Shown: one piece after another, positions 9,807-46,689 of the stretch
How the letters are laid out: each line of letters opens with the position of its first letter
How positions within the stretch are numbered: the first letter of the stretch is position 1
Source of the DNA: Halorussus ruber
GTDB lineage: Archaea > Halobacteriota > Halobacteria > Halobacteriales > Haladaptataceae
Reading direction: 5' to 3'
DNA: 64,000 nt
Assembly (NCBI RefSeq): GCF_004765785.1
Contig: NZ_SBIT01000008.1
Span: forward strand, 124,001 to 188,000
Notes under the pieces: model-generated
What the model saw: the letters and a program-made list of their open reading frames with translations, nothing else
Databases searched by the model: none
Told to the model about the DNA's origin: nothing
Program-made: the position numbers and the translations under genes

Positions 9807-9850
9807 CATCCTCCCCGCCCTGAAGGGCGAGGATTCCCGCGTTGGGATAT
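9807..9850 (-). mobile_element. Right end / omega-RNA 3' end of the TnpB element
   Basis: On the minus strand this reads CGGGAATCCTCGCCCTTCAG and then GGCGGGGAGGATGTCA, the hairpin (GCCC-TTCA-GGGC inside CCTC/GAGG) that commonly closes haloarchaeal IS1341-type elements. For such elements the 3' end of tnpB and its downstream flank form the omega RNA, and the adjacent host DNA supplies the guide. Here that flank is the last codons of the HTH_10 gene, whose TGA directly abuts the element. The boundaries are inferred. Confidence 0.7.
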
Positions 9851-9856
9851 TGTGGT

Positions 9857-11137
9857 TTACGACGTGACGTGTTCTCGAGGTGCGAACGCACCAGTTTCCT
9901 TGTCAAACAGGAACGTCGATGGCTGTGCCAACCAGCCGTTACTCCTATCACCGCCATCCGTGGCGGGACTCGGAGATACTTTCTGTCGAATGTTCTCAGC
10001 ACCGTTCACGTCCGCGTTCGCCACCAAGTCGCACTCATCACAGACGTACAACCCGCGTTCAACACGGTTCGCGTCACGCTTCCGACCACAACACGAACAC
10101 GACTTCGAGGTATCCCGCTCGGACACCTGTTCGACCGTGATGCCTTCCATCTCGGCCTTATATTCGAGGAGGTCGGTGAAGCGGTCGAACGCCCACGAAT
10201 GCAGGTCGAGGTTGCCGTGCGTGCCCCAGTTCTTCGCCTCGCTGTCCTCCTCGTCTTCACGGATACTAGAAAGGTCGCCCACTACAATCGTCCCAACTCC
10301 CTCGTCCACGCATCGCTCAACGATGTGCTTCGAGAGCGTGTGGAAGTAATGGGTGCGGCGAGCCGACTTTTTGTGATTTAGCCGCGTGGCCTGTTCGGAG
10401 TCCGAGTCGTCACAGCGAGCGATGCGTTTGCTGAAGTAGTAGTCGTCCTGCTTCAGGCAGTTGAGCGGATACAGTTCGCTGTGGCCGTCTTCGTAGGCGA
10501 GTGCGGCGAAGTTGTTGATGCCGAGGTCAACACCCACAGTCTGCTCACCGGGGTCCGCTGATACTTGGATTTCGACTTTGCAGACGAAGTGCAGTTCCCA
10601 CTCCTCACCAGTCCAGACTGCCCGGACTTGTTGGACGTTCTCAACGGTGGAGAGGTCAACGTCGGGACGGGTCTGGTATTCACAGAGGATGAAGTCCGAC
10701 CAATACTCCTTAAGATTCGAGCCTTTGCTGAGTCGGACGCGGTTGTACTCGGTGTCGAGTTTGAAGCCTTTGTTCTTGAATGTGACCGTGCTTCGGGGGT
10801 GGTCGTCGCCGCGTTTGCGGTAGCCGGGCGGGTTCGCGTTCGTGTCTCCGTTGCGTCGTTTGCCGTACCAGCCGGCGAACGCCTCAGCGAGTTTCTGAAG
10901 AACGCGCTGACTTGACTGAGAATGGAGGTCATCGTAGCGTTCGTGGCGCTTGAGGTAGGCGGTGAGTTCGTCGTGGTCTGGAATGTAGTCGATTTCGTCC
11001 CAGACGCGACTGATTGCCCACCGTCCGACATTCCAGAGCTTGGACGCGGCGAACCCGAGGACATCAAGGTCGCCAGACACCTGTTGCTGGTTCCTGATGG
11101 AAGCAGTGTAGGTGCGGGTGACGACCTGTTTCGCCAT
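9857..11137 (-). CDS. tnpB: TnpB-family RNA-guided nuclease (IS1341-type, no TnpA)
   Basis: 426-residue transposon-encoded nuclease relative, ancestor-like to Cas12. Seen in order: an N-terminal wedge/REC-like region with an FKNKGFKL-type strand; RuvC-I GVDLGINNFAAL (catalytic Asp); RuvC-II region IVVGDLSSIRED; a zinc finger CSCCG...CDEC; and RuvC-III NADVNGAENI (catalytic Asp). At the usual RuvC-II Glu position (EDL) there is Gly (GDL); a nearby Glu in IRED could substitute, as proposed for some TnpB/Fanzor relatives, or the protein could be nuclease-impaired. The C-terminus ends DKETGAFAPREHVTS. No tnpA transposase is nearby, so it cannot move on its own. Confidence 0.93.
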   Translation of the reverse strand: MAKQVVTRTYTASIRNQQQVSGDLDVLGFAASKLWNVGRWAISRVWDEIDYIPDHDELTAYLKRHERYDDLHSQSSQRVLQKLAEAFAGWYGKRRNGDTNANPPGYRKRGDDHPRSTVTFKNKGFKLDTEYNRVRLSKGSNLKEYWSDFILCEYQTRPDVDLSTVENVQQVRAVWTGEEWELHFVCKVEIQVSADPGEQTVGVDLGINNFAALAYEDGHSELYPLNCLKQDDYYFSKRIARCDDSDSEQATRLNHKKSARRTHYFHTLSKHIVERCVDEGVGTIVVGDLSSIREDEEDSEAKNWGTHGNLDLHSWAFDRFTDLLEYKAEMEGITVEQVSERDTSKSCSCCGRKRDANRVERGLYVCDECDLVANADVNGAENIRQKVSPSPATDGGDRSNGWLAQPSTFLFDKETGAFAPREHVTS

Positions 11138-14725: not shown

Positions 14726-14894
14726 GTTTCCGCGAGCTATCGGTCTATGGGGGCTTTACGCGTCCCGGTAATAAAAACTGCCGGGATTGACCGAGCGAGA
14801 GCAACGTATGAGGACTTCGGTCTATATAATATCGAGAACCTGCGGAATAAAAGTGCGTTCGTGCCTCTAACCGTGGTGCACCGCCCGGACGAGG

Positions 14895-15000
14895 TTTTAA
14901 ATACGAGGCCGGGGCGAATCCCGCCCGGACGTTTCGCGCGGTCGTTCGGTAGTCGAGGCCGGGGACCGCCAGTCCGACTACCCCGAGAGGGCTGAGCCAA
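14895..15000 (+). ncRNA. Candidate structured ncRNA, locus 1 (with TATA promoter)
   Basis: A strong TATA element (TTTTAAATA, 14895-14903) is followed 20 bases later by CGCCCGGACG (14922-14931), the probable start region. Then come a stem GCGGTC/GACCGC (14938-14943 with 14964-14969), CAGTCCGACTA, a hairpin CCC-GAGA-GGG (14982-14991) and CTGAGCCA. The same series, with identical promoter spacing, occurs on the minus strand at 46430-46635. There the tetraloop stem is CCG-GAAA-CGG, a compensatory change. No ORF follows on this strand; it runs toward the 3' end of ipk. Family name unknown to me. Confidence 0.6.
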
Positions 15001-15056: not shown

Positions 15057-15821
15057 CTACCGACCGTCGATGCGCGTGCCGGGGTTCTCGCCCGCGAGGA
15101 ACCCCCGGAGGTCGTCGGGGCCGAAAATCGTGGCGGGCGCGTCGAGCGACAGCAACGCCCGGACCTTCCCGGCCATCCCGCCCGTCACGTCGGTGGCGTC
15201 GCTCCCGCCGAGGAACTGGGCCACCTCGTCGTAGGACCGGATTTCCGGAATCACGTCGTCGGCGTCGTCCAGCACGCCCGGCACCGTCGAGCAGAAGCCG
15301 ACGCGCTCGGCGTCGATGCCCTCGGCGACGGCCGTGACCACCTCGTCGCCGCTGAGGATGCTGACGCCCTCACCCTCGTGGACCACGGCGTCGCCGTGGA
15401 GGACCGGGACGAACTCCTCGCCGAGCATCGTCTCGACCTGCTCGGTCATCAGCGACAGCTCTGCCTCGCGGTCCCGGCAGGCCGCCGAGAAGGGGTGGAC
15501 CGGCACCGCGGGCACGTCTCGGTCGTGGAGTCGCGCGAGGACGAACTCGTTGAGCGTCTTCATCGCGCCGTGGATTTCGAGCGCCGCGCCCGCGTCGGCC
15601 GTCCCCTCGGTCTTCGAGACGCCGTGCTCGCTGGCGTGGTGGTGGCCGAAGCTCCCGCCGCCGTGGACCACCACGAGGTCCGAGACCTCGCCGCCGTCGA
15701 GCGCCGCGGCGATGGCGTCGGCCGCGCGGTCGAGCGCCGGACCGTCGAGCGCCTCGGCGCGGTCCTTGTCGGTGATGACGCTCCCGCCGAGTTTGACGAC
15801 CGTGGTGTCGTTCGTCGCCAT
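15057..15821 (-). CDS. ipk: Isopentenyl phosphate kinase
   Basis: Phosphorylates isopentenyl phosphate to isopentenyl diphosphate, the last step of the archaeal mevalonate route. The 254-residue amino-acid-kinase-fold protein shows VVKLGGSVITDKD (nucleotide-binding), VHGGGSFGHHHASEHG with the IPK-diagnostic histidine near residue 50-60, and VTGGMAGKVRALL. It starts one base after the mvk stop codon, so the two consecutive pathway enzymes are co-translated. Its 3' end faces the candidate ncRNA of locus 1. Confidence 0.94.
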   Translation of the reverse strand: MATNDTTVVKLGGSVITDKDRAEALDGPALDRAADAIAAALDGGEVSDLVVVHGGGSFGHHHASEHGVSKTEGTADAGAALEIHGAMKTLNEFVLARLHDRDVPAVPVHPFSAACRDREAELSLMTEQVETMLGEEFVPVLHGDAVVHEGEGVSILSGDEVVTAVAEGIDAERVGFCSTVPGVLDDADDVIPEIRSYDEVAQFLGGSDATDVTGGMAGKVRALLSLDAPATIFGPDDLRGFLAGENPGTRIDGR

Positions 15822-46016: not shown

Positions 46017-46360
46017 CAGCGACCCTCGCCCGCGGCGTCCTCGTTCACGACTGCTTCGCTCGTGACCTCCTCGTCGCGCCACCGGGCGAACGAGTCGAGT
46101 AGGTCGCCCTCCTCGAATCGCTCGACGCAGGGCACGTCGTAGGGATGTAGCTCCTCGACCCGCGATTCGAGGCGGTCGTAGGCCTCGTCGGTGGTCTTGG
46201 CCAGCAGGACCACCTCGTCGTCGCGGTGGACCTCGCCGTCCCACCGGTAGACCGACGAGCAGGGGAATCGGTTGACGCAGGCCGCGAGGCGTTCGTCTAC
46301 GAGGGCCTCCGCGAGGTCCGGTGCCTCCTCTGGCGGTGCGGTGATGTAGGCGGTCGGCAT
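46016..46360 (-). CDS. cutA: Divalent-cation tolerance protein CutA
   Basis: Trimeric ferredoxin-like protein linked to copper tolerance, 114 residues from the ATG at 46360 (MPTAYITAPPEEAPDLAEAL). Family marks are VDERLAACVNRFPCSSVYRW, DEVVLLAKTTDEAYDRLE and ELHPYDVPCVERF. A TATA-like TTCTTAAGA... lies around 46385, so it has its own promoter. The following 34-codon gene overlaps its stop. Upstream on the same strand is candidate ncRNA locus 2. Confidence 0.92.
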   Translation of the reverse strand: MPTAYITAPPEEAPDLAEALVDERLAACVNRFPCSSVYRWDGEVHRDDEVVLLAKTTDEAYDRLESRVEELHPYDVPCVERFEEGDLLDSFARWRDEEVTSEAVVNEDAAGEGR

Positions 46361-46429: not shown

Positions 46430-46635
46430 TGGCTCAGCCGTTTCCGGTTAGTCGGACTGGCAGTTACGAGGTAGGGCGGCTCTGGCGCCAATAGCGAGGC
46501 GGTGAAACCGCCGGGCGACGGTGCTGGCTGACTCGCCAGCTATCTGCCCGCAACCACCTACCAGCGGTCCCGCTTCTCTTGCGAGACCGCTGTGAAGCGT
46601 CCGGGCGAGGTTCGTCCCGTTCTCGAATTTAAACC
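46430..46635 (-). ncRNA. Candidate structured ncRNA, locus 2 (with TATA promoter)
   Basis: On the minus strand a TATA element GGTTTAAAT (46635-46627) is followed 20 bases on by CGCCCGGACG (46608-46599). A stem GCGGTC/GACCGC (46591-46563) follows, then a large extra arm closed by GGTAGG/CCTACC with inner hairpins GCTGGC/GCCAGC and GGCGGT-TTC-ACCGCC. After it come CCAGTCCGACTA, the hairpin CCG-GAAA-CGG (46447-46438) and CTGAGCCA. Every element except the extra arm matches locus 1 at 14895-15000. It could be a cutA leader, but cutA seems to have its own TATA further down. Family name unknown. Confidence 0.6.
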
Positions 46636-46689
46636 TTCGGCACGCGAGAGCAGGCTGACCAGACCACCGGAACGCTTGGCCGACCAGTC

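Follow-up and report, generated by a model that had tools for sequence, protein, structure and literature searches.

Does the window, the 64,000-nucleotide stretch of Halorussus ruber DNA analysed here, carry two copies of one structured noncoding RNA (ncRNA) gene, and what might such an RNA do? The question arises from a preliminary description of the sequence, in which two loci on opposite strands were proposed to represent a probable haloarchaeal ncRNA family. The core pattern of these loci matches exactly twice within the window and never in 100 shuffles. Across the genome, it returns 13 matches, loci 1 and 2 among them, versus none for the reversed pattern; these 13 copies are a lower bound, and the first 11 bases of the pattern alone occur 15 times.

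A conserved fold with compensatory changes

The core of the family comprises helix P1 (CGGAC/GTCCG, 5 bp), an internal loop of 7 nt against CA, helix P2 (a stem base of up to 11 bp plus a variable arm), the linker ACTAM, the 3-bp hairpin P3 (YCC-GNRA-GGR) and the tail CNGNGCCA. Locus 1, on the + strand, encodes a putative RNA of the short P2-arm type (14927-14999) that is conserved as far as CTGAGCCA. Its P1 5' strand, CGGAC (14926-14930), pairs with GTCCG (14972-14976), and P2, formed by GCGGTC...GACCGC with a variable apical arm (14938-14969; strands 14938-14943 and 14964-14969), adjoins CAGTCC. The CA, the P1 3' strand and the single-stranded ACTAC follow at 14970-14981, the covarying, GNRA-capped P3 (CCC-GAGA-GGG) at 14982-14991 and the tail CTGAGCCA at 14992-14999, where conservation ends abruptly and no T-run terminator is seen. 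Locus 2, on the - strand, is of the long P2-arm type and carries an extra inserted hairpin (putative RNA, 46430-46602). This hairpin, GCGGTCTCGC...GCGGGACCGC (46564-46590), is inserted in the P1-P2 loop, and P2 itself (GTGGTTGCGGG...CCTCGTAACTGC, 46460-46557; strands 46557-46547 and 46471-46460) bears a long arm with the conserved GCTGGCGAGTCAGCCAGC hairpin. The remainder of the core, CA-GTCCG-ACTAA-CCG-GAAA-CGG-CTGAGCCA (46430-46459), supplies the P1 3' strand, linker, P3 and tail.

These assignments modify the preliminary description in several respects. The element CAGTCCGACTA, the three-pair GNRA stem and CTGAGCCA are present at both loci, as had been noted. The TATA box, spacer and CGCCCGGACG also recur at both, with a spacer of 18 bases, but only the CGGAC(G) of CGCCCGGACG is conserved family-wide. 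This segment is the 5' strand of P1, and its partner GTCCG lies within CAGTCCGACTA, a pairing that had been missed. The GCGGTC/GACCGC stem described as shared is P2 in locus 1, but in locus 2 it is the inserted hairpin (46590-46564), so the two are not equivalent elements.

A covariation test and a first covariance model were based on 46 trimmed copies. Across these sequences, 92.1% of cells are paired, two-sided changes occur at 12 of the 19 pairs, and covariation amounts to 0.314 versus 0.163 in shuffles, a value reached by none of 500 shuffles. As a control, sliding the partner strand by one base reduced pairing to 40-45%, and the covariation result held after sequences of other genera were added. 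The two variable pairs of P3 rank top by mutual information and are intact in all 82 distinct sequences, as C-G, G-C or U-A; the swap between CCC-GAGA-GGG and CCG-GAAA-CGG, earlier read as compensatory, is thus a real compensatory change. In the same 82 sequences, mutual information revealed no extra pairs or pseudoknot in the core outside P1-P3. Both G-U pairs and GNRA loops are found on the promoter strand, which fixes the strand of the RNA. The copies therefore display the conserved fold with compensatory changes expected of a stand-alone structured ncRNA gene.

Outside the paired regions, the GYTTCG loop, CA, ACTAM and CNGNGCCA are invariant. The P2 arm, conversely, is variable, with short, medium and long forms, some of which contain a conserved hairpin (GCTGGC-GAGTCA-GTCAGC), and some copies have more hairpins inserted in the P1-P2 loop. 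A tertiary contact of the linker GACTA with an AGTC of the P2 arm was considered: AGTC occurs in 10 of 27 short-arm copies, whereas shuffles predict 3.5 and reach at most 9. The contact is not claimed, as the remaining short-arm copies lack the AGTC. Loop lengths vary in steps of one base and the copies have no conserved start codon, which excludes a small protein gene. The earlier statement that no ORF follows does not apply to locus 2, downstream of which a CutA1-family gene starts at 46360 on the same strand; the gene downstream of locus 1, of the amino-acid-kinase family (15057-15821, - strand), is convergent.

Promoter and RNA ends

Conservation begins abruptly at a BRE (CGAAGG), followed by TTYAARTACGA and then by a CGGGACSAAY element. 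At locus 1, this sharp 5' limit coincides with a promoter at 14891-14919 (+), which consists of BRE and TATA (TTTAAATACGA) with a downstream CGGGGCGAAT element; the TATA box TTTAAATA occupies 14896-14903. The promoter of locus 2 (BRE, TTTAAATTCGAGAACGGGACGAAC) lies at 46610-46638 (-), with its TATA box TTTAAATT at 46633-46626. A second copy of CGCCCGGACG (14882-14891) directly precedes the TATA box of locus 1 and is probably due to chance or partial duplication. P1 lies 34 bases from the BRE in 81 of the 84 copies, the fixed spacing from a promoter of its own that a stand-alone ncRNA gene would be expected to show. Copies in other genera have the same promoter.

Several leaderless protein genes share this promoter and have their start codon 31 bases past the beginning of the TATA motif. 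By analogy, the RNA is predicted to start at the first G of GGAC, which places the 5' ends at G14927 (+) and G46602 (-). The 3' limit of conservation, GAGCCA(A), is equally sharp; most copies lack a T-run, so the 3' end is uncertain, and the sequence downstream is not conserved. The promoter was rejected as an RNA-specific signal, since leaderless protein genes and a second family of RNAs also have TATA plus CGGGACSAAY in front of them. In this promoter class, TTYAWRTNCGARRNCGGGACSAAY, a TATA box is followed at about 20 bases by a GC-rich element. The class is represented by 21-46 sites in the genome (46 versus 0 for the reversed pattern) and precedes some ten leaderless protein genes as well as both RNA families.

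Distribution, positions and history

With up to one mismatch allowed, the pattern search was positive in 15 of the 17 relatives of the same genus, with 2-12 copies each, and negative in two; the pattern was also absent, at the same setting, from the other searched genomes of the taxonomic family. The covariance model detected 3-15 copies in 16 of 18 Halorussus genomes, one copy in another and none in the last. The genomes with one copy or none (G009 and G013) are natural knock-outs, indicating that the multicopy state is dispensable. Haladaptatus genomes have exactly one copy each, with the same promoter and flanked by genes for an ArsA-like ATPase (as read in homologous loci) and a class I aminotransferase. 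In three further families of the order, a single copy occupies this aminotransferase site, which also carries weaker yet recognisable copies in Halegenticoccus, Natronomonas sp. CBA1123 and Haloglomus.

A second covariance model was applied with stricter filters to the whole class and found the family in 15 of 391 genomes and 6 of 86 genera. These counts include one match (L265) that was discounted, as it reads as coding sequence, lies at a different site and lacks the promoter. No match was found in the viral contigs, phages or plasmids searched. The consensus search and covariance models thus extend the family by further copies whose stems are kept with different bases, and the shared sequence cannot be the product of one recent duplication devoid of paired changes. 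Together with the at least 13 copies in the genome and the homologues in other families of the class, this strongly supports the haloarchaeal ncRNA family first suggested from loci 1 and 2.

Within Halorussus, the copies sit at about 15 gene contexts that are common across the genus. In 14 of the 15 assigned contexts there is at most one copy per genome, the exception being context I, where two genomes have two or three. The genes next to the copies serve unrelated housekeeping functions (GATase, TRM, cyclophilin, CutA1, amino-acid kinase and aminotransferase), and the orientation towards them varies by site, being usually, not always, convergent. Copies at the same site in different genomes are slightly closer to each other than other pairs are (1 of 500 shuffles reaches the difference). 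In one species (G002), copies from different sites share 89% identity, compared with about 77% for unrelated copies, which suggests homogenisation by gene conversion. The simplest history is a single ancestral gene at the aminotransferase site, followed by repeated losses and by amplification in Halorussus.

Comparison with known RNAs

Searches with Rfam 15 at gathering and relaxed thresholds gave only sub-threshold chance matches at loci 1 and 2, consistent with the earlier remark that no known family could be named. ARAGORN detected no tRNA or tmRNA in the window, and a literature search limited to openly accessible papers found no such RNA family. The family is new, but its kind, orphan structured ncRNA genes, is known.

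Among archaeal RNAs, H/ACA and C/D guide RNAs have a helix-internal loop-helix layout, which the present family resembles. Unlike them, it has no C/D box pair. An H/ACA assignment would call for a two-sided pseudouridylation pocket and for an ANA box immediately 3' of the lower stem; the family instead has an invariant ACTA after P1 and a loop of 2 nt on the 3' side. HEARO-type RNAs are structured, mostly without an ORF, dispersed in many copies per genome and linked to HNH endonuclease elements. The family shares their dispersed, multicopy and structured nature and lack of an ORF; in contrast, it is inherited vertically at fixed sites, has no ORF and gives no match in Rfam.

Several haloarchaeal intergenic sRNAs have been described individually, such as Haloferax volcanii sRNA132 (PMC6560208) and s479 (PMC8155600). 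Like these, members of the family are small and intergenic, have their own promoter and contain no ORF; unlike these, as far as their descriptions go, they are multicopy and covary within a common fold. The only Rfam match in the window, sot0042, lies at 9812-9981 and belongs to a TnpB gene: an IS605-type tnpB (OrfB_IS605, Cas12f1-like TNB) at 9812-11137 on the - strand overlaps this reRNA. Like sot0042/TnpB reRNA (RF02656), the family is haloarchaeal and has a defined 3' boundary, beyond which the sequence varies. It differs in having its own promoter and in showing no match in sequence or structure, no TnpB linkage and no transposon end; no tnpB was encountered among the neighbouring gene families read.

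Proposed role and alternative explanations

We consider it about an even chance (probability roughly 0.5) that the loci are stand-alone ncRNA genes whose structured RNA acts in trans as a ribonucleoprotein scaffold, a reading drawn from sequence. Each locus would use its own archaeal promoter to drive a structured RNA of about 70-200 nt, the 5' end of which would close helix P1 and the 3' part of which would consist of the linker, the GNRA-capped hairpin and the invariant tail. The unrelated housekeeping neighbours, mixed orientation and invariant core favour action in trans over control in cis. The invariant unpaired pieces (the GYTTCG loop, CA, ACTAM and CNGNGCCA) suggest a single protein-binding platform, to which the variable P2 arm would be peripheral; no candidate protein partner was found. 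The copy number, in turn, suggests that the many Halorussus copies, grown from a single ancestral gene adjoining the aminotransferase, may provide extra gene dosage or act as paralogues with different arms. A genus-amplified ribonucleoprotein is proposed tentatively, as a possible but doubtful elaboration: the ancestral single-copy gene would have become a dispersed family of up to about 15 fixed loci, kept by selection, subject to gene conversion in G002, and combining a common protein-binding core with different arms, which would give Halorussus a set of ribonucleoproteins whose arms are interchangeable.

The main rival to trans action, although rather unlikely, is that the RNA acts as a cis-antisense RNA, running into the 3' end of a convergent gene and controlling the end or stability of its mRNA. 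In most contexts, and likewise at the ancestral aminotransferase site in several genera, the next gene is indeed convergent to the RNA, which often lies within tens of bases of that gene's stop codon or overlaps it, and no terminator is visible after the tail. However, the cutA and tRNA-methyltransferase contexts have a neighbour in the same direction, several convergent neighbours are 150-450 nt away, an identical core stands before unrelated genes, and nothing is conserved past the tail. Less probable still is a non-autonomous mobile element or repeat without cellular function. Such an element could account for a dispersed, multicopy family amplified in one genus and for the homogenised copies of G002, yet nearly all copies keep both structure and promoter, their positions are common across the genus with one copy per site, other genera have a single syntenic copy, there are neither terminal repeats nor conserved flanks, and plasmids and viruses are without a match. 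A guide RNA, in which a conserved scaffold up to GAGCCA would precede a variable 3' flank that guides a nuclease as in TnpB-type RNAs, is very improbable: the sharp 3' boundary followed by copy-specific sequence, the missing terminator and the TnpB gene in the window fit it, but that gene has a different reRNA of its own (sot0042), flanks at the same syntenic site differ among species, transposon ends are absent, and no second site in the genome matches the 18-nt flank of either locus 1 or locus 2 at up to 2 mismatches, which speaks weakly against a guide function.

The family is of interest because structured ncRNA families restricted to archaea are rare and the majority of haloarchaeal sRNAs are orphans without a structural model. 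Its covarying fold, predicted 5' end, promoter, syntenic, single-copy Haladaptatus ancestor and multicopy state in Halorussus give a direct starting point for deletion, pull-down and structure-probing experiments. The contrast between genomes with a single copy and those with about fifteen further offers a natural test of why an archaeon would amplify an RNA gene.

A second RNA-like family with the same promoter

The second conserved RNA-like family preceded by this promoter is marked by GTGACCTGAGAACYGCCGCGAGG and has the same spacing as the family of loci 1 and 2. It is represented by loci L246, L243, L236, L231, L293 and L276-L292, in the Halorussus ruber genome for example at G000:C6:117566, C8:184402 and C2:85142. 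Five loci were scanned against Rfam and gave no match. The loop GCGGCGCG pairs with the 3' CGCGCCGCC, forming a pseudoknot; two-sided changes occur in 5 of 9 pairs, and none of 500 shuffles reaches the observed covariation. This family is present in many Halorussus genomes and in at least one other taxonomic family.
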